Notes under the pieces: model-generated
Databases searched by the model: none
Told to the model about the DNA's origin: nothing
What the model saw: only the letters and a program-made list of their open reading frames with translations
Assembly: GCF_002214465.1 (NCBI RefSeq)
Contig: NZ_CP015101.1
Coordinates: 1,309,013-1,373,012 of the forward strand
Direction of reading: 5' to 3'
Length of the DNA: 64,000 bases
Source: Thermococcus barossii
Lineage (GTDB): Archaea; Methanobacteriota_B; Thermococci; Thermococcales; Thermococcaceae
Translations under genes and position numbers: made by a program
In this document: piece by piece, positions 19,074 to 31,298 of the stretch
Layout: every line of letters begins with the position of its first letter
Numbering within the stretch: position 1 is the stretch's first letter

Positions 19074-20348
19074 TCACCTCTTGCCGCCCTTACCCTTCTT
19101 CTTTTTCTTTTTGTCCTTTTTCCCTTTCATTTTCTCCTTCTTCTCGAACTTCCTGCCCTTCTCGCCCTTTCCTTTCTTCTTGCCCTTCGCCTTTTCCTTC
19201 TTTTTCTTGGCAGGCTTAGCCTTCCTCTTCGGCGGGTTCGGGTACTTCTCCTTAATCTCCTGAATGCGCTGCTCTATCTCCTGCTTCAGCTCCTCGGCGA
19301 TGTATTCGCCGGAGAAGTAGTCAACCCTGGCCGCTATGGCGAGCTTTCCTGCCAGGGCCCTTGCTATCTTACCCCTCTGCCACCAGGGCGAGCGGTTTAT
19401 CGCTGGGTACTGAAAGATGACCCCGTGCTTTGGAGGTTTAGCACCGCTCCTCAGGTGTCTGAAGAGGGCCTTTTCAGCTCCAAGGACCTGTATGGTCGAG
19501 GCGGGCATCATGGCAAGCTCCTTTAAACCGCCCGCGAGGCTGAGCAACCTGGCGCCGAGCTTCGCACCGACCAGAGCCTTTAGGTTCGGCGCAACCTCGT
19601 CCATTGCCGTCTCAAGGTAGTCCTCTATCTGCTCCCTGAGCTTGTAGAGGTCGCTTATCTCGCTCGCGAGCTTGACGATTATCTCGGCGTCGAACTTGCC
19701 GAGCGGGGCTCCCATGGAGCTCTCCGCGGCCTTGATTATCTTCTCAATCTTGCCCTCAGGGAGGCCAAGGCTCTTGAGCTTCTCCTCACTCACGTTCTCC
19801 CTCGGGCCGACTGTCTTGACGAAGGCAACGTACTGCTGGTGCTTGGGAAGGATCTCATCCAGCTCCGGGAAGTGAAGGCTGTACCACTCCCTGAGGCGCG
19901 AGACGAGGAGGTTGATGACCTTGTCTATGTCGTCAAGGGACTCGATTGCCTGGATTATCATCTTGTCGCGCGCGCCGCTCTGCTCCTGTATGCGGAGCCT
20001 GGTGAGAGCGACGCCAACGCTGAAGTACTCCTCAAACCAGTTCTCGCCGAGGAACTCCTCGGGGCTTGAGCGGAGCTTTTCTCCCGCTATGTTCGGGAAC
20101 TCGGCGGTGGCGTTGTAGCCGAGCTCCTTCAGGGCCCTGCTCAGCTCCGAGTCTTCCACCACAAACTCGTCGTAGCCGCTCTCTTTAAGCTCGTCAAGGA
20201 ACGAGATCAGCTCGTCGCTTGGCTCGCCCTTCAAAAGTTTGTCAAGGCTGTTCTCAGGTTTTCCGGAGAAAACCCTCTGATCAATGAGATTACCGCCCTC
20301 GTCAAAGGCGTATATGCCCCTGACGTTCTCGGCAAGGTACGCTTTCAT
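19074..20348 (-). CDS. Nop5/Nop56/Nop58 C/D-box RNP core protein
   Basis: A 424-residue scaffold that joins fibrillarin and L7Ae on box C/D sRNAs. The N-terminal fibrillarin-binding domain is followed by a coiled coil (about 115-240) and the Nop domain, with the signature GAKLGARLLSLAGGLKELA and IQVLGAEKALFRHL. The last ~60 residues are an extreme Lys/Glu/Gly tail, common in this family and real rather than a sequencing artefact. Four in-frame start codons lie in a row (GTG 20357, ATGs 20354, 20351, 20348); the last, MKAYLAEN, has the best distance from GAGGGTGA. Confidence 0.95.
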   Translation of the reverse strand: MKAYLAENVRGIYAFDEGGNLIDQRVFSGKPENSLDKLLKGEPSDELISFLDELKESGYDEFVVEDSELSRALKELGYNATAEFPNIAGEKLRSSPEEFLGENWFEEYFSVGVALTRLRIQEQSGARDKMIIQAIESLDDIDKVINLLVSRLREWYSLHFPELDEILPKHQQYVAFVKTVGPRENVSEEKLKSLGLPEGKIEKIIKAAESSMGAPLGKFDAEIIVKLASEISDLYKLREQIEDYLETAMDEVAPNLKALVGAKLGARLLSLAGGLKELAMMPASTIQVLGAEKALFRHLRSGAKPPKHGVIFQYPAINRSPWWQRGKIARALAGKLAIAARVDYFSGEYIAEELKQEIEQRIQEIKEKYPNPPKRKAKPAKKKKEKAKGKKKGKGEKGRKFEKKEKMKGKKDKKKKKKGKGGKR

Positions 20349-20530
20349 CATCATCACCCTCTCAGTTTTTGTCTCCGAAGTATAAAAGGGTTAGGCGTTT
20401 TAAACCCTTGCGTGTCCGTTTTGCACCAACTTCCGTGGAGACCCTTGGCAGTCAATGAGCACTGTTAGCTTGAGAGTTTTAAGAACCCTGTGTATGGGTT
20501 TAAAATTGTATGGGGTTCGCCATAATATAA

Positions 20531-20745
20531 CTTGGCTTTGGCCAGGTTTTCACTTCTAGTGATAGGAAGAGTTAAATAATCCAACGGCATATTTTGTAAT
20601 GCCATTCCCATTGGAGGTGCAAGTTGTGAATTGGAAATCCGCACTAGTGTTACTCTTAGGAATCCTCCTATTGGGAGGAATCGTGACGGCGGCACCGGTT
20701 GAAAAACCAGAAGCAGTGCCACTAACCACAGTCAAAGCACTAGCG
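20531..20745 (+). repeat. Promoter/leader/signal-peptide region repeated at 28938-29150
   Basis: From ggccaggttttcacttc through the ribosome-binding site (cccattggaggtg) this region matches 28938-29030 nearly base for base, and the similarity continues more weakly into the coding part (gcaccggttga.aaacc). It marks a duplicated gene module. Confidence 0.8.
20548..20564 (+). promoter_or_regulatory. Tgr-type box (TATCAC-N5-GTGATA-like) upstream of a TATA element
   Basis: TTTCAC-TTCTA-GTGATA differs from the Thermococcales glycolytic motif TATCAC-N5-GTGATA by one base. It lies just upstream of the TATA-like TTAAATAA (20572-20579). By the known behaviour of the Tgr/TrmBL1 regulator, a site upstream of BRE/TATA goes with activation under gluconeogenic conditions. 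The box is conserved in the second copy (28954-28970). Confidence 0.55.
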
Positions 20746-21927
20746 GTTAGAGAACTACACAAGTTCCCCGAATTCAATGGAGCACTCCCAACCAACCCAA
20801 CACCCCTCTACTTCCCTGACGGCAGGTTGGCGGCCTACGAATTCAGAATGGTCAAGAATGGAAAAACCATTGGTTACATCATAGTATCAGCCAACAGGAA
20901 TTTGCCACCGGCAATCCTGGAGGCCGGCTTTGGGAAGAAGACTCCAAGCGACCTGATGAAAGAACTCGCGGTGAAGAAAGGCGTTAAGAACTACCGCTTC
21001 GTGTACTTCAGCGGACTGAACTACGGCCTGCTGGCAGAGGATAAAGTCATAGACATGAAAGGCAAAGAATACAGAAAACCAAACACATACAAACCCCCAG
21101 TTGGAGACAATGGACTACAGAACAGCCACAAATGGCTATCTCTTAAATTGCAGACGTCAGCTCACACATTAATGACCACAGACATATCAGGACAGTACAA
21201 ACCAAACATTGCCACAAGGATAGATTGGAAAATGGTATCAGGAGTTCCCAGGTGGGCTCAGTATGATCCCATGAATCTTAGCCAGGAAAATGATTCCCAT
21301 CTTCCACAGCCAGACGTAGGGTATGCAGGTGATGATTTTATAGGGCCTAATCCAGACTACTGGGATAATAAGAGGAATGACTGCGCCCCGATATCTGGAG
21401 CTATGCTTATAGCATATTATGATAAGCAATATCAAACCTCATGGTACCGTGAGGCACTGATAGATGTCCTCCATAAACTCATGGAAACTGATGAAAATGG
21501 AATGACTAAAACACCAAAAATTGGACCAGGGATAGAAAAATTCTATGATGAAGCCATGAGGTTATACCGAAAAGGAATATTCGATAAACCCCCGAAATAC
21601 CGGTATGTCACAACATTCAAGTCTTGGGGCATAGACGGGGAAGAGGATCCGAATAACGACAAACTATTCAATGTAATTCAATCTGAGATTTCTAATTACA
21701 GGCCGGTGCTACTAAGTTCAAGTAATGGAGACGGAATAGGGTTCCACTGGCAGTGGCTTCACACAACAACAGTTACAGGGTATAGCGTGTACAGTAACGG
21801 AGATAGGTATATCTTCGTCCACACAACCAGAGCTGATCTCCTTGCAGCGTGGATACTTGTTGACACTCTAGGGAAGCCCAGAGGTTCCAATTACTTAATA
21901 ATATTGGTCCACGCGTACCAAACGTAG
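20626..21927 (+). CDS. Secreted C39-like (papain-fold) protein
   Basis: A 433-residue exported protein. Residues 1-~24 are a signal peptide (NWKSALVLLLGILLLGGIV, ending TAAP). A propeptide-like region (~25-160) contains FRMVKNGKTIGYIIVSANR. The C-terminal half has DCAPISGAMLIAYYD with a Cys in the active-site position of C39-like peptidases, and later a conserved His region (HWQWLHTTTVTGY), so a cysteine-peptidase fold is likely; catalysis is inferred. The GTG 20626 start is set by GGAGGTG at 20613-20619, six bases upstream. It is followed 11 bp later by a partner gene. The sequence is visibly more AT-rich than its neighbours. Confidence 0.7.
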   Translation: MNWKSALVLLLGILLLGGIVTAAPVEKPEAVPLTTVKALAVRELHKFPEFNGALPTNPTPLYFPDGRLAAYEFRMVKNGKTIGYIIVSANRNLPPAILEAGFGKKTPSDLMKELAVKKGVKNYRFVYFSGLNYGLLAEDKVIDMKGKEYRKPNTYKPPVGDNGLQNSHKWLSLKLQTSAHTLMTTDISGQYKPNIATRIDWKMVSGVPRWAQYDPMNLSQENDSHLPQPDVGYAGDDFIGPNPDYWDNKRNDCAPISGAMLIAYYDKQYQTSWYREALIDVLHKLMETDENGMTKTPKIGPGIEKFYDEAMRLYRKGIFDKPPKYRYVTTFKSWGIDGEEDPNNDKLFNVIQSEISNYRPVLLSSSNGDGIGFHWQWLHTTTVTGYSVYSNGDRYIFVHTTRADLLAAWILVDTLGKPRGSNYLIILVHAYQT

Positions 21928-21938
21928 GGGGGAGAAAA

Positions 21939-23519
21939 TTGAACCTTAAGAAGACTGTGGCCGCCATAACGATATCCATTATCTCCATCTCCCTTTTTAT
22001 GGTGATCCATAATACAACCACAGAAAACGAACAGGATAGTATCACCCCCCTTCCCCAATGCAGCATAGTCTACGCTCCCAATTTTACACCGTCCAACTCA
22101 TGGCACTGGAGCGTGGAGGAGGTTATGAACAGAACAATAAAGGGTTTTGATGACAGGATTCTGTTCGAGAACACTGATAGACTGGAAAGGGAGGACTGGC
22201 CATCTGCACTGGGCATAGCGCCGCCCTGCTTCATGGCAAAGGGAGCGCTCCACATTGAGGGAGAAAATGTGGGAACAACATACCGGCCGGTGGTGGGGTT
22301 CACAGAATATTACGGGGTGGAAAACGCCACAATGCCCAAAGGCGAGGTGTACCTGGCACACTACGCAGTACCGACCGCCGGGGTGATATGGAGGATAAGG
22401 GAGTACGGGGTTTACCCCGAAGATAGAGCCAGAGAAGAAACACCGGTAGCTGAATGCAACTGCTCCCTGGAAGACATTATAAAAGCCACACTGGGGAGAA
22501 TCGAGAAGGGAGGCTTCATTGAGATTGAATCGAGCCTAAAAACCAGCGAAAACAATTGTTTTGAGCTTATCACCTCCAGACTGTACAAAGGGCCGGAGGG
22601 CTACCTCTACGTCGAGTTTGCGAGGGTTAGGGGACTGGACCTAATCAGGGTTCTCATGGTAATGGGAAGGGAGCGGGGGGTGGTTGAGGCCTACTCAAGG
22701 GCCCTAAGCGCCGGTGGCCCCTTAGAAGAAGTTAATGCGGGATCCTGGCCTGAACACCGGAACATGTCCGCCTGCAAACTCAGTATGAATCCGGAATTTA
22801 CCCCCGTTAATGCCTGGCCCGGCTGGAGCGTCAGGCGTCCTCTGGGAAATCTGTACGTGGAATACAACGACGGTCTAACCATCATGCCCCAGTTTTCCCC
22901 GAAAAACGTCAGCTCGGAGAATCCTCCAGGAGCTTTGTACGGTGTGGACTGGCCCTCCAGAATTGGGATAACTCCCACATGCGCGATAGCCGGTAGCCAG
23001 GTAGCCTTTGTGACCTGGAACACCGAAAACGCCACGGGATCATTCTGTCCCACGGTGAGAAACAAGCTATGTGCCATTAACAGACAATCTCCCTTCCTGC
23101 CAGGGGGAAAGGTGTACCTGGCCACGTACGTGATACCCCAGGCCAACACGACATGGGTAATTCAGGAAAACCTTGCCTGTAGGGGGTGGAACAACTTTCT
23201 GGAGCCGGCAACCTGCAGGAAAAGAGAGACCACAATAAGGGGAGCCTGCACCTGCCCCGTTGAAGCGATAATCACCCGGCTCGACGAGGCCATAAGAGGA
23301 AAAGGATTCGAGGAAATCCCTCCGGAGGTGGAGCCCGCTGAGAACGAGTATTTCAAGCCTCTCAGCGTTAAACTTTACCGCAAAGACGACCAGTACCTCT
23401 ATGTGGAATTCGCCCAAGTCAAGGGCATGGATTTGGTTAGAGTTCTCATGATAATGGGCGACGAGGAGACAGTCAAGGCATACGCGGAGGCCTTCACAGC
23501 GGGAAGCATCGAAGGTTAA
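21939..23519 (+). CDS. Exported/membrane-anchored protein with two copies of a Cys-containing domain
   Basis: Unrecognised family. The 526-residue protein begins with an uncleaved-signal or anchor helix (about residues 5-23). Two homologous domains follow, each with a W-P-S-A/R-L/I-GI-x-P-x-C element (DWPSALGIAPPCF, DWPSRIGITPTCA), a KVYLA-type strand, a C-x-C motif (ECNCSLEDII, ACTCPVEAII), and a closing YLYVEFAxVxGxDLxRVLMxMG. Paired Cys residues suggest disulfides outside the cell. The TTG start follows GGGGGGAGA. It is tightly coupled to the C39-like gene; its paralogue at 29185 has one domain. The role may be inhibitor, binding partner or surface protein, but that is conjecture. Confidence 0.65.
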   Translation: MNLKKTVAAITISIISISLFMVIHNTTTENEQDSITPLPQCSIVYAPNFTPSNSWHWSVEEVMNRTIKGFDDRILFENTDRLEREDWPSALGIAPPCFMAKGALHIEGENVGTTYRPVVGFTEYYGVENATMPKGEVYLAHYAVPTAGVIWRIREYGVYPEDRAREETPVAECNCSLEDIIKATLGRIEKGGFIEIESSLKTSENNCFELITSRLYKGPEGYLYVEFARVRGLDLIRVLMVMGRERGVVEAYSRALSAGGPLEEVNAGSWPEHRNMSACKLSMNPEFTPVNAWPGWSVRRPLGNLYVEYNDGLTIMPQFSPKNVSSENPPGALYGVDWPSRIGITPTCAIAGSQVAFVTWNTENATGSFCPTVRNKLCAINRQSPFLPGGKVYLATYVIPQANTTWVIQENLACRGWNNFLEPATCRKRETTIRGACTCPVEAIITRLDEAIRGKGFEEIPPEVEPAENEYFKPLSVKLYRKDDQYLYVEFAQVKGMDLVRVLMIMGDEETVKAYAEAFTAGSIEG

Positions 23520-23585
23520 AGCATTTCATTTTTCACAATTCTCTTTCGAATGATATAGGGAAACAAAGAGACAGGGAGAAAAGGT

Positions 23586-24719
<1,134 letters not shown>

Positions 24720-24807
24720 AATCGCCGCTACCCTTTAAGTGTATAGATTTGATGACGTGCTCAAAAGTGTGCATCTAATGGGGGGAACGGAAGTGGAGGA
24801 GAAGCTT

Positions 24808-26049
24808 ATGCGCAAACTGAGCTCAGGGTCACTGGATTTTGAGGCGTACTTCTCGGACAAGGCCAAGAGCATGAAGGCTTCGGAGATTAGGGAGCTCCTC
24901 AAGCTCGTCGAGGCCGGCGATGTTATCTCCCTCGCCGGTGGCCTCCCGGCTCCCGAGACATTCCCGGTTGAGACCATAAAGAAAATAGCCGAAGAGGTTC
25001 TCACCCACCATGCAGACAAGGCTCTCCAGTACGGAACCACCAAGGGCTTCACGCCTCTCCGCCTAGCCCTGGCGGACTGGATGGAGAAGCGCTACGGCAT
25101 TCCAACCAGCAAGGTTGAGATAATGATGGTCGCCGGCTCTCAGCAGGCCCTCGACCTCATAGGCAGAACCTTCATCAACCCCGGCGATATAGTTGTCGTC
25201 GAGGGTCCAACGTATCTCGCCGCTTTAAACGCCTTCAAGTACTATGAACCCGAGTTCATCAGCATCCCCATGGACGACGACGGTATGATGGTTGACCTCT
25301 TGGAAGAGAAGCTCAGGAAGCTCAACGCGGAGGGCAAGAAGGTAAAGTTCGTTTACACGGTTTCTACCTTCCAGAACCCAGCAGGAGTCACGATGAGCCT
25401 TGAGAGGAGAAAGAGGCTCATAGAACTCGCCAGGGAATACGATTTCCTCATCGTTGAGGACAGCCCGTACAGCGAGCTCCGTTACTCGGGCGAGCCCATC
25501 CCGCCGATTAAACACTTCGACGACGAGGGCCGCGTCATGTACCTCGGAACCTTCTCGAAGATTCTCGCTCCTGGATTCAGGCTCGGCTGGATAGCGGCCC
25601 ACCCGCACTTCATCAGGAAGATAGAGATAGCCAAGCAGGCCGTAGACCTCTGTGCCAACACCCTTGCCCAGGTCATAGCATGGAAGTACGTTGCGGACGG
25701 CCACCTCGACGAGCACATACCGAAGATAATAGAGTTCTACAAGCCAAGGCGCGACGCAATGCTGGAGGCCCTTGAGGAGTACATGCCCGAGGGCGTCAGG
25801 TGGACCAAGCCGGACGGGGGAATGTTCATCTGGGTCACCCTCCCCGAGGGCATCGATACCAAGATGATGGCGGAGAAGGCCATAAGGAAGGGCGTAGCCT
25901 ACGTGCCCGGTGAGGCGTTCTTCGCCCACCGCGACGTCAAGAACACCATGAGGCTCAACTTCACCTACGTGCCGGAAGAGAAGATACGTGACGGTGTTAA
26001 GAGGCTCGCAGAAGTCATTGAAGAGGAGATAAAGGCCCTTAAGGGCTGA
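24808..26049 (+). CDS. Aromatic/kynurenine-type aminotransferase (PLP fold type I)
   Basis: A 413-residue aminotransferase. The PLP Lys is Lys251 in YLGTFSKILAPGFRLGW; SLAGGLPAPETFP near the N-terminus and NPAGVTM and the TKPDGGMFIWV segment are those of the KAT II/ArAT branch. The closest remembered relative is the Pyrococcus horikoshii kynurenine aminotransferase homologue. It would yield aryl pyruvates, the substrates of IorAB elsewhere in this window. ATG 24808 is chosen because GGAGGAG sits six bases before it; the in-frame codons back to GTG 24739 start right at the predicted initiation site and are less likely to be translated. Confidence 0.88.
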   Translation: MRKLSSGSLDFEAYFSDKAKSMKASEIRELLKLVEAGDVISLAGGLPAPETFPVETIKKIAEEVLTHHADKALQYGTTKGFTPLRLALADWMEKRYGIPTSKVEIMMVAGSQQALDLIGRTFINPGDIVVVEGPTYLAALNAFKYYEPEFISIPMDDDGMMVDLLEEKLRKLNAEGKKVKFVYTVSTFQNPAGVTMSLERRKRLIELAREYDFLIVEDSPYSELRYSGEPIPPIKHFDDEGRVMYLGTFSKILAPGFRLGWIAAHPHFIRKIEIAKQAVDLCANTLAQVIAWKYVADGHLDEHIPKIIEFYKPRRDAMLEALEEYMPEGVRWTKPDGGMFIWVTLPEGIDTKMMAEKAIRKGVAYVPGEAFFAHRDVKNTMRLNFTYVPEEKIRDGVKRLAEVIEEEIKALKG

Positions 26050-26114
26050 TGTCCCTTCTTTTCTTCCCGCAAAGCTTTTTATTTTGGAATCGGTAACATC
26101 CTTAGGTGGTAGCT

Positions 26115-26981
26115 ATGAAGCCCCTGATAGGTATAATCGGTCAAATCGATCCTTCCAAAAACAGGCTCTTTCTTGACCGCAGGCACATTGAGAAAATCGC
26201 CACCGCGGGAGGCATCCCTGCGGTTTTTACCCTCGACTGCTCCCCTGAGGAGGTCCTCGAACACGTGGACGGGCTGCTGCTCATAGAGGGGCCCGACGTT
26301 CACCCGTACTTTTACGGCGAAGACCCATCGGGTGCGATAAAGTACGTTGACGTTGACAGGGACGAGTTCGAGATAAGGCTCGTGAAGATGGCCGTGGAGA
26401 AAGGGATTCCTATACTCGGCATTTCCCGCGGTATGCACGTGATAAACGTCGCCCTGGGAGGAACGCTCTACCAGGACTTAAACGACATCCCCAAGGCTAT
26501 AAAGCACGACTGGGACGTCGAGCTGATAGGACCCACCCAGCGGGTTCACGGCGTCAGGATAAAAACAAGCTCCACCCTCTACGAGATACTCAAGAACGAA
26601 CTGGACATCGGGGGCACCAACGAGGTCTATCTGCGCGTCAACAGTTTCCACCATCAGGCAGTCAAGAGGGTCGGGGAGGGAATTCGGCCGGTTGCCTACG
26701 CGGTCGATGGTTTGATAGAGGCCATTGAGGGAACCGAGGGCTTCATAATGGGCCTGCAGTGGCAGCCGGAGTACCTTCCCGAGATGGAAAGGGTCTTTGA
26801 GGCTTTCGTCAGGGCCGCCGCCGAGTATCGCCTCAGGAAGCTTGAACTGGAGAGGATCGAGATAGAGGCTGAAGTGAGGGAGGAGTTAAGAGAGCAGGCC
26901 CCAGGCTCTAAAGGGGAACCAGATGAGAGCCATCACAGCTCGGAAACGACCGATAACCCTCCCGACACGAACCAAATGTGA
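26115..26981 (+). CDS. Peptidase C26/class I glutamine amidotransferase homologue lacking the catalytic Cys and His
   Basis: A 288-residue protein with the gamma-glutamyl-GABA-hydrolase fold: LLIEGPDVHP, GISRGMHVINVALGG, VNSFHHQAVKRV and GLQWQPEY appear in the expected order. In active members the motifs read G-I-C-R-G and Q-W-H-P-E; here Ser104 replaces the nucleophilic Cys and Gln217 the catalytic His. The fold is kept but ordinary catalysis is not possible, so a regulatory or binding role is inferred. A charged tail of ~50 residues ends in an unusual SETTDNPPDTNQM. The 3' end overlaps the convergent radical SAM gene by 74 bp. ATG 26115 follows GGTGG. Confidence 0.75.
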   Translation: MKPLIGIIGQIDPSKNRLFLDRRHIEKIATAGGIPAVFTLDCSPEEVLEHVDGLLLIEGPDVHPYFYGEDPSGAIKYVDVDRDEFEIRLVKMAVEKGIPILGISRGMHVINVALGGTLYQDLNDIPKAIKHDWDVELIGPTQRVHGVRIKTSSTLYEILKNELDIGGTNEVYLRVNSFHHQAVKRVGEGIRPVAYAVDGLIEAIEGTEGFIMGLQWQPEYLPEMERVFEAFVRAAAEYRLRKLELERIEIEAEVREELREQAPGSKGEPDESHHSSETTDNPPDTNQM

Positions 26982-27750
26982 TTCCCTTCGCAGTTATCTT
27001 TTTCTCAGCCTCCTGGAGGATCTGAAGCCTCAGCTCACGCGGGAGATAGTGGTAGCCCCCTATTCTCTCCCCCCTCTCGTAAAGGGGCCAGAGCTTTTCC
27101 ATCAGCTCCGGGAACTTGGCGAACATCCTTGCCTTAGAATCCGGTCTGAGCTTGAGCGTTGAGACGGTTATGTGGCTCACGAAGCTTAAAGCGTCGAGGG
27201 TCTCGTCGAAATCCTCCCATGTGTAGAAGGGTATTATCGGGTCTATGCGCGCGTAAACGGGAATTCCGGCCTTCTTAGCCTTTTTGAGGGCCCGTATTCT
27301 CGACCTCGGCGAGGGTGCGTTCGGCTCCAGCATTTTTGCCTTGCGCTCATCGACGGTCGTCACGGTTACACCAACGGCACAGCGCAGCTCGCTCAGGATA
27401 TCTATATCGCGCTCAAAGATATCCGATTTCGTAAGGAGAAGGCAGCGGACGTCGTAGCGTTTGAAGAGCTTGAGAACCTGCCTGGTTATCCCCAGCTCGC
27501 GCTCCACCGTCGGGTAGGGGTCGGAGGAGTAGGAGAGCGCTATGATGTATCTTTTATCGAACCTTCTGAGCTCCCGCTCCAGCTTTGGCAGGAGCCCCTC
27601 CTTCGTCCTCACGCGGAAGGCGTTGGGAATGTAACCCGTTATATAGCAGTAAACGCACGCGTGGTCGCAGCCGGTGTAGACGTTGAGAGTGTACTTAAAC
27701 GGACAGGTGCAGAGCTTTGCCTTCCAGGGGTCGAAGGGCCTGATATACAT
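26908..27750 (-). CDS. Radical SAM protein, SPL/Rv2578c-like
   Basis: A 280-residue radical SAM enzyme. The cluster motif is TGCDHACVYCY (about residues 27-37), the Cys-x3-Cys-x2-Cys pattern; LLLTKSDIFERD and RIDPIIPFYTW are typical SPL-family segments. Members of this group include spore-photoproduct-lyase-like proteins of unknown substrate. A C-terminal FGSCREGY motif adds a further Cys, as in relatives. The conserved C-terminus supports translation through the 74-bp overlap with the convergent gene. Confidence 0.85.
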   Translation of the reverse strand: MYIRPFDPWKAKLCTCPFKYTLNVYTGCDHACVYCYITGYIPNAFRVRTKEGLLPKLERELRRFDKRYIIALSYSSDPYPTVERELGITRQVLKLFKRYDVRCLLLTKSDIFERDIDILSELRCAVGVTVTTVDERKAKMLEPNAPSPRSRIRALKKAKKAGIPVYARIDPIIPFYTWEDFDETLDALSFVSHITVSTLKLRPDSKARMFAKFPELMEKLWPLYERGERIGGYHYLPRELRLQILQEAEKKITAKGITFGSCREGYRSFPSCDGSHLVPL

Positions 27751-27808
27751 GTTCCTGCCTACGAAAAGTCCTTAAAAGGAATTGCGCTTACACGAACGGG
27801 TGAAAAAT

Positions 27809-28216
27809 GTGACAGATGAAGTTAGGGGACGCGTAAAGTGGGTCGAGAACATGCAGTTCGTTGGGAAGATGGACACGGACCAGTGCGCGATAATCCTCGG
27901 CGATGGGGGCATAAGCCCCATGAAGCTCCTCCTCCTGAGCGTTGCGGGCTGCACCGCCTACGATGTGGTAATGATTCTCCAGAAGATGCGCGAGCCGATC
28001 GAGGGGCTGGAGGTCGAGATATCCGGTGAGAGGCGCGAAGAACACCCTCGCATATACAAAAAGGTTCACCTGCACTACAAAATCCACGGCGATGTGAGTG
28101 AGGAGAAGGCCAAGCGCGCCATAGAACTGAGCCAGGACAAGTACTGCTCCGCCTCAGCCCACGTGAAGCTCAGCGGGGCAGAGGTTACGTACTCCTTCGA
28201 GATAATCAGGGATTAG
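27809..28216 (+). CDS. OsmC/Ohr-family protein
   Basis: A 135-residue OsmC-fold protein. The two redox Cys residues are in SVAGCTAYDVVMI and DKYCSASAHVKLSG. Family members reduce organic hydroperoxides with thiols. The GTG start at 27809 (VTDEVRGRVKW) has GGTGA five bases upstream; an in-frame TTG at 27782 has no such site. It is divergent from the radical SAM gene, with a short shared promoter region. Confidence 0.88.
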   Translation: MTDEVRGRVKWVENMQFVGKMDTDQCAIILGDGGISPMKLLLLSVAGCTAYDVVMILQKMREPIEGLEVEISGERREEHPRIYKKVHLHYKIHGDVSEEKAKRAIELSQDKYCSASAHVKLSGAEVTYSFEIIRD

Positions 28217-28255
28217 GTTTTTAACCTCCCCCTCTCCCTTTCCTCGGGTGGTGAC

Positions 28256-28897
28256 GTGATAGAGCTGATCAAGTACTTTGTGATACTCTACGGCGGGCTG
28301 TTCGCGATAACGAATCCAGTCGGAGCGGTGCCGGTGTTTCTTGGAGTCACCCACGACCTCTCCAGGGAGGAAAGGCACGAGATAGCCACAAAAACAGCGC
28401 TAACCGTTCTCCTCACACTCGTCACATTCGCACTGGTGGGGGAATGGATATTCAGGTTCTTCGGGTCGAGCGTCGATGCGTTCGCGATAGCAGGAGGGAT
28501 ACTCCTCTTCAAGATGGCGATGGACATGCTCTCGGGCAGGCTCTCGACGGTCAAGATAAGCAAGGAAGAAACCGAGGAGTTCAGCGAGGAAGTGGTCACG
28601 CTGGAGGAAGTTGCCATAATTCCGCTCGCCATACCCCTCATCTCGGGGCCCGGTGCGATAACCACCGTGATGATATACATGGCCAAGAGCGGTACGATTC
28701 CGGAGAAGGCCGTCGTCATAGCCAGCATAGGGGCGATAGCGGCAACAGTCTGGCTGGTCCTCTGCTCCTCCAACAGGATACAGGAGAGGCTCGGAAGGGT
28801 GGGGATAAAGGTCATGACGAGGATGATGGGTCTGATACTCACCTCGATGGCCGTCCAGATGATAATCAACGGCATCAAGGGGGCCTTCGGGCTTTAG
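28256..28897 (+). CDS. MarC-family integral membrane protein
   Basis: A 213-residue protein with six predicted membrane helices. The ITNPVGAVPVFLG signature lies in the first helix region, and PLAIPLISGPGAITTVMIY in the middle; both define MarC/UPF0056. The function of the family is unsettled (it was once thought to confer multiple antibiotic resistance in Escherichia coli). The GTG start follows GGTGGTGA. The gene is monocistronic. Confidence 0.88.
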   Translation: MIELIKYFVILYGGLFAITNPVGAVPVFLGVTHDLSREERHEIATKTALTVLLTLVTFALVGEWIFRFFGSSVDAFAIAGGILLFKMAMDMLSGRLSTVKISKEETEEFSEEVVTLEEVAIIPLAIPLISGPGAITTVMIYMAKSGTIPEKAVVIASIGAIAATVWLVLCSSNRIQERLGRVGIKVMTRMMGLILTSMAVQMIINGIKGAFGL

Positions 28898-28937
28898 CGT
28901 TTCACGGTTTTATTGCCTGGGACTTAAATTTTATAAC

Positions 28938-29150
28938 TTGATTTTGGCCAGGTTTTCACTTCTTGTGATAGGAAGAGTTAAATAGTTCAACGGCATATTT
29001 TGTAATGCTATTCCCATTGGAGGTGTAGGTTACGAGCCGGAAAGCCGCGGCAGTATCACTTATCGGCCCCTTCTGTTAGAGGGGTCGTAACGGCAGCACC
29101 GGTTGACAAACCCGAGGCAGTACCCCTGGCGACCGTCACCAACATGCAAG
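28938..29150 (+). pseudogene. Decayed 5' fragment of a second C39-like secreted protein gene, with its promoter
   Basis: The promoter, leader and ribosome-binding site match 20531-20625 almost exactly, but the coding part is broken. The GTG start position reads gttacg, a TAG stop occurs near 29077, and the frame shifts before the still readable GVVTAAPVDKPEAVPLATVT (compare GIVTAAPVEKPEAVPLTTVK in the intact copy). Similarity ends at about 29150. The rest of the gene is absent and the partner gene follows within 35 bp, so an internal deletion removed most of the protein. Confidence 0.75.
28954..28970 (+). promoter_or_regulatory. Second copy of the Tgr-type box
   Basis: TTTCAC-TTCTT-GTGATA, upstream of TTAAATAG (28978-28985). 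It keeps both half-sites of the copy at 20548-20564 and differs only in the spacer. Confidence 0.5.
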
Positions 29151-29184
29151 AGCGGACCGGAACCATTATCCAGAGGCGATACAG

Positions 29185-30047
29185 TTGAACGGTAGAACTA
29201 TCACAAAACTGCTCATACTTTCCATTATTCTACTCTTTCTTGCGGTGGTGTTGTATTCCAAAATGCCCATCCGAGAGACAGAACAGGATGAAGGTTTAAA
29301 GAATTGTCTCCTAACTTCGAACGCAACCTACTGGCCCTCAATGCCCGTGGTAACTGTTCACCGCTATCTACCAAACGGGTCGGTTATAGAGTATGAGGAG
29401 AGCTTTACCCCGTGGCCCAATGAAGATAAGGGCTTTATGTGATCGAAGACTGGGCTGAGGAACTGGGGATAAACCCACCGTGCTACATCACCAAGGCTAC
29501 AGGAAAGGCGGTGCTGGAAGCGGAAGGGAAAGCTGGCTATGGTCTTTTCCTTCGGTGGAGAGTCAAAAACGATGGGAACTCTTGGAGCGATTTGAAAAGG
29601 ATTGACAAACGAAAAGAGACCCCTGTCTCCGCGGGTTCAGTGAGGATAGCAGTTTACACGATACCGATATCCAGTGGAAGCTGGGAAATCGAGGCTGGTG
29701 AGCTCTTGGAGAACCCCTACTGGTTCAACAGCACCGGTGGAGGCCGGTTTGTCTCCGCGTGGTTCAATGGAACGTGCGCTTGTAAGCCAGAGGAAATCGT
29801 AGAGACCACCCTTAAGAAAATCAAATCTGCCGGCTTCAAAGAAAAGGAACATGGGGAAATCTTGGAAACAGAAGCGCTAAAACCCATATATTCAGCTTTC
29901 TTCGTTAGAGATAATCAGTATCTGTACATTGAGTTCGTTGAAGTTAAAAGCATGAACCTGATGAGAGTTCTCATGATAATGGGCGACGAAGAGACAGTCA
30001 AGGCATACGCGGAGGCCTTCACAGCGGGAAGCATCGGAGAAGGGTGA
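29185..30047 (+). pseudogene. Exported Cys-containing protein, paralogue of the 21939 gene, interrupted by a frameshift
   Basis: Two frames together make one single-domain paralogue. The first (29185-29442, TTG start) has an anchor helix at about residues 8-25 and ends ...NEDKGFM. The second (29439-30047) continues EDWAEELGINPPCYI, a CACKPEEIVETT segment and the closing YLYIEFVEVKSMNLMRVLMIMG. In the intact paralogue the corresponding segments are contiguous (EDWPSALGIAPPCF), so one base has been lost near 29437. The frames overlap as GTGA, so limited reinitiation cannot be excluded. The last ~75 bases are nearly identical to the 3' end of the 21939 gene. Confidence 0.65.
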
Positions 30048-30106
30048 GGTTTCCCCTCCACCGGCACATTTTTTAGCCGGAGGTTCAACTTTTCACGGTG
30101 TTGAAA

Positions 30107-30388
30107 ATGCGCGGAGACCTGATTCGTGTTCTCAGCTCAGTTGAGGAGAAGGCCAACGAGCTGAAGCTCGACGGCTACGAGCCGGACGTTGTCCTCCTGG
30201 GAAGGGAAGCCTACGAGTTCATAAGAGAGCAGATAAACGAGGAGTTCGGCGACGAGGAGGAGGTTTTCGAGCTCTCTGGTCTAAAGATACGCATGCTCGA
30301 CGAGCTCGGAGGGGATGCAGTTGTCATCGACAGCAAGGCACTCGGCCTCGGTCTCGGCGGGGCGAAGAGGTTTAGGGTCGTCCTATAA
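30107..30388 (+). CDS. Small conserved hypothetical protein (93 aa), possibly DUF1884-like
   Basis: A small protein with an N-terminal helix (VLSSVEEKANELKLDG), a DVVLLGREAYEFIREQINEEFG-type central helix (given in part), and a C-terminal strand ending in a Gly-rich LGLGLGGAKRFRVVL. It resembles the small alpha/beta proteins of Thermococcales grouped as DUF1884, but I am not certain of the family. ATG 30107 is six bases from GGTG. It overlaps the convergent citG-like gene by 17 bp at the 3' end. Confidence 0.6.
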   Translation: MRGDLIRVLSSVEEKANELKLDGYEPDVVLLGREAYEFIREQINEEFGDEEEVFELSGLKIRMLDELGGDAVVIDSKALGLGLGGAKRFRVVL

Positions 30389-31298
30389 CTCCCCAGACCT
30401 TTCCGTTTCTCATTTCCACCCTCAGCCCCCTCAAGACGAGAAGGCTGAGCGAGACGGCCATTATATCGGCTAAACTGCCGGGGTTCCTCAGGTCCCCTTT
30501 ATCCCGCATGAATGCATCGAACTCTTCGATGCCCATCTTTCCCTCAAGGACTTTCCCGGCGTTCTCCTGAACGAGCCTCGCCTCTTCGATGCCGGCCTTC
30601 CTAACTATCAGCGTGTCGAGGTTATGGGCAAGAAGCTCGAGGAATGCCCTGAGCACGGCCTCCTCCAGCGGGAGCTCCTTTATTAGCTCGTAGAGCCTTC
30701 CAAAGGTGGAGTAGCTCAGCTCGTACTCCTTGAGCCACTCGCAGAATATCATCTCGCGCTCACAGCTTACCTCGGCGAGCCTGGACAGGTTCACCCCGTC
30801 TTGAAAGAGCTCCCTGAAGGAATCGTCGCTGTAAACGTCGTACTTGACCCCGGAGGGGATTCCCTTGGGGTTGGCTATCCTTATCGCCCGGTAGAGCTCC
30901 ATCGTGTCCCTGACCGTTGATTCGTCGATGAGGAGCTTGGCCTTCTCCCTGGCGTCGAGCATGTTCCTCCCAATGCCCAGCCCCATGATTAGAGGGATCG
31001 AAAGGGCTATGATCCCGAAGTTGGGGTTGGCGTCCTGAGCCTCGCGCGATGCCTGAACCGCCCTCTTTATCAGCTCCCCGATTCCAGCTTCCCGGGGCTC
31101 AAGGATACCCTTCCTGAGTAACTCTGCGGTCTTTATCGCCTCGTAGTAAACGCCGAGGACAGAAGTCTCGGCGAAGAGGAAGTGGTAGAACGTCAGGTCG
31201 TCAAAGTCCCTAAAGCGGCTCACGTTGCCCGGCTTTGGAAGGGCCGCCTCAAGGAGGGGGCCAAGGGTGAAAGCCCGGATTATTCGCCATCTCTCCAT
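30372..31298 (-). CDS. Triphosphoribosyl-dephospho-CoA synthase family protein (CitG/MdcB-like)
   Basis: A 308-residue all-alpha protein. The defining elements LEAALPKPGNVSRFRDF, NPNFGIIALSIPLIMG, and HNLDTLIVRKAG are those of CitG/MdcB, which make the precursor of the citrate- or malonate-lyase prosthetic group from ATP and dephospho-CoA. No citrate or malonate lyase genes are present here, so the biochemical role in this organism is uncertain. It is the last gene of a pspC-orf-citG operon, starting one base before the upstream stop codon ends. Confidence 0.8.
   Translation of the reverse strand: MERWRIIRAFTLGPLLEAALPKPGNVSRFRDFDDLTFYHFLFAETSVLGVYYEAIKTAELLRKGILEPREAGIGELIKRAVQASREAQDANPNFGIIALSIPLIMGLGIGRNMLDAREKAKLLIDESTVRDTMELYRAIRIANPKGIPSGVKYDVYSDDSFRELFQDGVNLSRLAEVSCEREMIFCEWLKEYELSYSTFGRLYELIKELPLEEAVLRAFLELLAHNLDTLIVRKAGIEEARLVQENAGKVLEGKMGIEEFDAFMRDKGDLRNPGSLADIMAVSLSLLVLRGLRVEMRNGKVWGVIGRP

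Follow-up and report, generated by a model that had tools for sequence, protein, structure and literature searches.

Polymorphic two-gene modules at fixed chromosomal sites in Thermococcus: a putative secreted protease with a cognate anchored partner

The window analysed here, a stretch of 64,000 nucleotides (C1:1309013-1373012 of G000, a 1.92 Mb single-contig Thermococcaceae genome), contains two loci of a two-gene module that we regard, with a probability of about 0.6, as a polymorphic effector-immunity cassette, in which a predicted secreted pro-cysteine protease is paired with a cognate anchored immunity protein or inhibitor. What we observe is a shared module anatomy, covariation between the two genes, one-way retention of the second gene, exchange between sites and species, and homopolymer tracts within some of the lead genes. 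An earlier note on this DNA had remarked that the paired families look undescribed, and this impression holds: the lead gene is weakly C39-like or C10-like, the partner (PT) is without a Pfam or NCBIfam match, and a literature search, to whose scope the 2019 paper on archaeal toxins (10.1128/mBio.00715-19) did not belong, returned no earlier description of the cassette.

Anatomy of the two loci and their products

The earlier note had reported a promoter, leader and signal-peptide block at 20531-20745 that recurs at 28938-29150. The recurrence is real, with limits that comparison to relatives places at 20526-20744 and 28932-29138 (Table 1). Within the source genome the block occurs at these two places only (80% identity, E 1.9e-46), and a genome-wide repeat, which would have undermined the proposal, is thereby rejected. 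A TCACT..AGTGA palindrome (20545-20570 and 28951-28976) is found directly 5' of the TATA-like box in most modules, and may be a candidate regulator site. The first locus does have a complete C39-like gene and a two-domain partner, as had been proposed, and the two PT domains are mutually homologous; the second likewise carries a remnant of the lead gene together with a one-domain, frameshifted PT. In the remnant the start codon is now ACG, an indel and an in-frame TAG are present, and the reading frame is deleted from approximately codon 41 to near its end, while in the adjoining PT gene a one-base deletion near 29434, identified against intact relatives, leads to a TGA. Judged from the reading frames, site A of the window is an intact module and site B a decaying orphan-partner locus.

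Table 1. Features of the two window modules and the sites they occupy (window coordinates)
Feature	Position	Strand	Remarks
Site A	between genes at 19074-20357 and 23586-24623
Constant promoter and leader, module 1	20526..20625	+	similarity between modules at different sites begins at 20526; 14-locus alignment
Module 1 elements	TCACT..AGTGA palindrome; TATA-like GTTAAATAA at 20571; ribosome site GGAGGTG at 20613	+	named from sequence
C39-like putative secreted papain-like pro-protease	20626..21927	+	constant signal peptide and pro-domain to ~21091, then variable catalytic domain
Two-domain anchored partner PT, module 1	21939..23519	+	domains 22050-22727 and 22764-23516; constant tail ~23376-23507
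Site B	between genes at 28256-28897 and 30098-30388
Second constant 5' block, module 2	28932..29138	+	promoter and dead C39 remnant; deletion junction 29138/29139
One-domain PT of other type, module 2	29185..30047	+	broken; body 89% identical to C39-linked PT of G038/G025
Constant PT tail, module 2	29919..30047	+	tail and right flank 93% identical to G016/G039 site B
Site C	L063 in the source genome

The lead gene product is best read as a predicted secreted papain-like zymogen with a pro-domain. Alone, the window protein matches Pfam C39_2 weakly (E 0.0087); among 28 family members, C39_2 is matched by 26 (best 9e-10), I69 (the Spi inhibitor/pro-domain family) by 13 and C10 by six. A structure model of the protein finds its best solved-structure match in prostaphopain B (E 3.8e-4), with low TM-scores. 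Cys253, His379 and His399 are invariant in all 28 proteins; the third catalytic position is thus occupied by a histidine instead of the expected Asn/Asp, which is unusual and makes protease activity uncertain. The C39 peptidases of bacteriocin-processing transporters (PF03412) belong to the same broad papain-like superfamily, but the protein described here is a stand-alone secreted one with a pro-domain, not part of an ABC transporter; with no PF03412 match anywhere in the source genome, that identity was rejected.

The partner had been called an anchored, Cys-containing protein, and the wider family agrees: a hydrophobic N-terminal segment is found in 48 of 51 PT reading frames tested, Cys73 and Cys162 are invariant, and Cys4 and Cys164 nearly so. 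The PT domain is predicted to adopt a confident fold (pLDDT 93), for which no significant PDB match, and no significant match to any known inhibitor among solved structures, was obtained. The fold hits are weak and non-significant, and several are to the Mog1/PsbP/DcrB fold, the effector chaperones EagT6 and SciW among them. Identities between PT bodies are bimodal (20-50% or 70-100%), and as such PT falls into discrete types. PT may represent a new, heat-stable class of extracellular cysteine-protease inhibitors.

Fixed sites, covariation and exchange

PT was found in 26 and C39-like genes in 31 of the 94 Thermococcaceae genomes that formed our main survey sample. A profile search of 115 genomes of the phylum detected PT in 26 genomes and C39 in 33, every one of them Thermococcaceae, and outside the family a scan of public genomes yielded divergent C39 relatives only, in a few haloarchaea. 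The named relatives in which these genes occur belong to Thermococcus. When 58 loci were mapped, most PT modules proved to lie between conserved genes at fixed sites, and at least four such chromosomal sites (A, B, C and D) exist in Thermococcus. The window modules occupy sites A and B, both of which are also occupied in several other species; outside the window the source genome has a third PT gene, complete and without a C39 gene, at C1:95809-96567 (site C). A virus-borne module was rejected for want of any match in viral contigs, a search from which nearby records may be missing, and a known defence family was rejected as PADLOC returned no match to the module.

Across the family the module follows a constant-variable-constant plan, in which a constant promoter, signal peptide and pro-domain are followed by a variable catalytic domain and PT body, and these in turn by a constant PT tail. 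Among lead proteins linked to PT, the pro-region is 88-99% conserved (residues 21-120) and the catalytic domain mostly 33-57%, with 0.70-0.75 in the active-site stretch; conservation of PT itself is 23-43% in the first 200 residues and rises to as much as 87% close to the C-terminus. At the DNA level, similarity between module 1 and most relatives starts at 20526 where the sites differ, and stops at 21084-21111, usually at 21089-21094, and many cross-site matches are confined to the PT tail. The two variable segments change together. A Mantel test links catalytic variant to PT body with rho 0.595 (p=0.0004); for pro-domain and PT body the correlation is weaker (rho 0.24, p=0.046). Four catalytic variants are common to two species (96-99% alike), and their PT bodies are 88-98% alike, as against mostly 23-53% for other pairs of the PT group; catalytic variant, in short, predicts PT variant.

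The near identity of the two PT ends in the window had been noted earlier and is genuine, with roughly one difference in the last ~75 bp against a DNA identity of 37% between the bodies. Its attribution to gene conversion holds in part at best. PT tails of pairs with body identity below 0.6 are as similar within a genome (0.666) as between genomes (0.665; p=0.11), and recent gene conversion as a general cause is unsupported across genomes; the likeness mostly reflects a tail that is constant throughout the family, with perhaps a slight local homogenisation in the source genome.

Evidence of exchange is found at both window sites. Over 900 bp, module 2 shares 89% identity with a PT that G038/G025 carry at site A beside a C39 gene. 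The sequence on either side of this body resembles site B of G016/G039, with ~90% identity in the left flank (28800-28985) and ~93% in the tail plus right flank (29919-30400); the PT body at that site is of a different type, and the matches mark a recombination breakpoint near 29919. The PT at window site A has its counterparts in orphan PTs at site C, with 93% identity in G016 and 92% in G039, while the neighbouring site A flanks are ~85% identical, which argues that this gene has moved between species and sites. One C39 and PT module of G015 (L094) links a site A left flank to a site C right flank, as expected from recombination between modules. At another locus of the same genome (L096) a site C contig ends within the C39 gene, and modules may thus serve as recombination points for chromosome rearrangement. 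In G070, two loci at different sites (L082 and L083) have identical C39 5' ends, including a 9-G tract, and catalytic domains ~50% alike, which we read from their sequences as within-genome homogenisation of the constant block. PT duplicates of the same type do not occur within a genome (0 observed, 4.2 expected, p=0.005), a figure confounded by orthology at fixed sites and not relied on as a principal argument.

One-way retention and its possible explanations

The earlier note had proposed to test whether the partner always adjoins a C39-like gene, and had named its common occurrence without one as a refutation. Taken literally that condition applies, but the dependence runs in one direction. 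A partner gene lies directly downstream of all 28 complete C39 genes examined. In a site tally counted by hand from the gene maps, complete PT-type C39 genes occur at 14 sites, each with a PT downstream (one cut by a contig end), and among the mapped loci of the 94 genomes there is no site at which such a gene lacks PT. The reverse does not hold, as one or more full PT domains stand without a complete C39 gene at 25 sites; seven further sites have a broken PT only. Because loci at a fixed site are related by common descent, these counts of loss and retention are not independent. A C39-linked PT of another genome is matched at 60% or better by 33 of the 43 orphan PT domains, in most cases at 80-97%. 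Module 2 and the site C loci of G016/G039 retain a C39 5' remnant joined to a point just before the PT start, and several other orphan loci retain just the promoter portion of the constant block. An immunity gene would be expected to show this pattern, with no complete PT-type C39 found without PT; a partner having a function of its own would also account for the one-way loss.

On the effector-immunity reading, the first gene would encode an exported papain-like cysteine protease, kept inactive by a constant pro-domain of Spi-like type until its activation in the extracellular space, with a catalytic domain that comes in discrete variants. The product of the second, anchored in the membrane and lying outside the cytoplasm, would bind the matching protease variant and block it, and would protect the producer and any cell with the same partner type. 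The constant 5' block and the constant PT tail would serve as arms for homologous recombination, by which catalytic domain and PT body would be exchanged as one, both from species to species and from one fixed chromosomal site to another, and where the protease is lost and the partner retained, orphan immunity would result, window site B being a probable and decaying example. Proteolytic activity, its inhibition by PT, antagonism between strains and phase switching are what we infer from the pattern. A broader and more tentative proposal is kin discrimination in hyperthermophilic archaea, in which phase-variable secreted proteases of many specificities would each be countered by a cognate surface immunity protein, the cassettes would be exchanged among fixed chromosomal sites, and libraries of orphan immunity genes would be kept against the proteases of neighbouring species.

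Staphopain and staphostatin, streptopain (SpeB) and Spi, and the Bacteroides C10 proteases are pairs of a secreted cysteine protease and a neighbouring inhibitor, and the present module shares with them a papain-like zymogen with a pro-domain and a putative inhibitor gene downstream. It is unlikely that the module is simply of this kind, a nutritional secreted protease with a self-protection inhibitor, in which case coevolution and drift would explain its variation and strains would not antagonise one another. In its favour, the zymogen is built alike and the genes stand in the same order, prostaphopain B is the best fold match, I69 and C10 are among the Pfam matches (the Spi-like pro-domain in 13/28), and variant pairs covary. 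However, PT is anchored, apparently extracytoplasmic and without sequence kinship to known inhibitors, and it is strongly polymorphic, exchanged as a cassette and kept without a protease at 25 sites, whereas a pure self-inhibitor would tend to vanish along with its protease. Moreover, most orphan types match the C39-linked PT of other species rather than the resident one, and site E (see below) has extra downstream partners of other families.

Both products look exported and are strongly polymorphic, and Thermococcales possess another hypervariable surface module, VARTIG (PMC8416519); a surface recognition module, serving adhesion or self/non-self recognition, diversified by viruses or partner choice, with a protease fold that processes PT or surface proteins, would account for these features. 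We nevertheless think it quite unlikely, as the catalytic Cys and His are invariant in 28/28 proteins, the partner is retained without the lead gene and never the reverse, and the partner can be an unrelated polytopic protein. A last alternative, close to the duplicated module of the earlier note, is a plain tandem duplication in the source genome with one copy decayed and the ends gene-converted. The alike 5' and 3' ends, the short identical stretch of tail and the broken second copy are in keeping with this. It is nonetheless very improbable and largely contradicted by the PT types: both sites are occupied in several species, the two bodies are of different types at 37% DNA identity, and the body of the second copy is of a type found beside an intact C39 gene in other species (89% identical to G038/G025), its flanks and tail matching site B of G016/G039.

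Effector and immunity genes so arranged recall the polymorphic toxin systems (PMC3482391), in which a constant N-terminal region precedes an exchangeable, variable C-terminal effector domain, a matching immunity gene lies directly downstream and orphan immunity genes occur. All three traits are found here: a constant pro-region (88-99%) before a catalytic domain at 33-57%, the two decoupled at site E; a downstream partner of putative immunity role whose variants covary with those of the lead gene; and PT-only sites whose domains are largely matched elsewhere. The lead protein differs in being a small exported zymogen instead of a large delivery protein, and the putative immunity gene in having a constant tail, which amounts to a second recombination arm. 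No dedicated delivery genes were seen in the module neighbourhoods; a signal peptide is present, and general export is assumed. Membership in the polymorphic toxin systems is as such supported on architecture, not on function. VARTIG (PMC8416519) and the present module have in common a restriction to Thermococcales, hypervariability through recombination, an architecture like that of polymorphic toxins, and an exported lead protein with small membrane proteins downstream. VARTIG centres on Ig-domain proteins (arCOG07710), whereas the lead protein here is papain-like and has no Ig domain match, and the module is not a VARTIG one. Predicted archaeal polymorphic toxins have been described as lacking experimental characterisation so far (PMC8416519), and antagonism between archaeal strains is largely unexplored experimentally. 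The family offers discrete, matched pairs of protease and partner that sort into natural specificity groups, besides orphan partners and tracts that may act as on/off switches, and its host genus includes genetically tractable strains.

A second branch at site E and homopolymer tracts

At a further site, E, other Thermococcaceae carry a second branch of C39-like genes with partner families f29, f17/f45, f44 and f81 and downstream tandem arrays (L104-L117); no C39 gene of this branch was found in the source genome. Site E catalytic domains form two main classes, with identities of 0.73-0.88 within and 0.42-0.47 between them. Directly after the first comes the anchored f29, which is remotely related to PT (hhalign probability 96.6, E 4.9e-10); the second is followed by the small polytopic f17/f45, and L112, of a third catalytic type, is paired with a partner of its own. 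Catalytic class thus predicts partner family, and pro-domain similarity does not track the classes. Between PT and either f44 or the L112 partner there was no significant direct match, the link running only through f81. Some site E loci have additional partners from the other class, and these resemble tandem orphan immunity genes.

Some C39 genes contain homopolymer tracts within the signal peptide, and no such tract is present in the window gene. Five otherwise complete C39-like genes are out of frame exactly at the tract. The frame is lost at a poly-G tract in the gene of G013 (8 G) and in the two G070 copies (9 G apiece), all of them otherwise open, and at a poly-T tract at site E of G013 (T7) and in G024 (T9), while the gene of G054 (T8) is in frame. 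Eight-G runs are rare in these genomes, at most some ten places each. The tracts suggest phase variation of C39 genes, sequencing error being an alternative. The poly-G tracts lie at position 4778 of L070, 7506 of L082 and 4507 of L083, and the poly-T tracts at 4287 of L104, 6070 of L108 and 6238 of L115.
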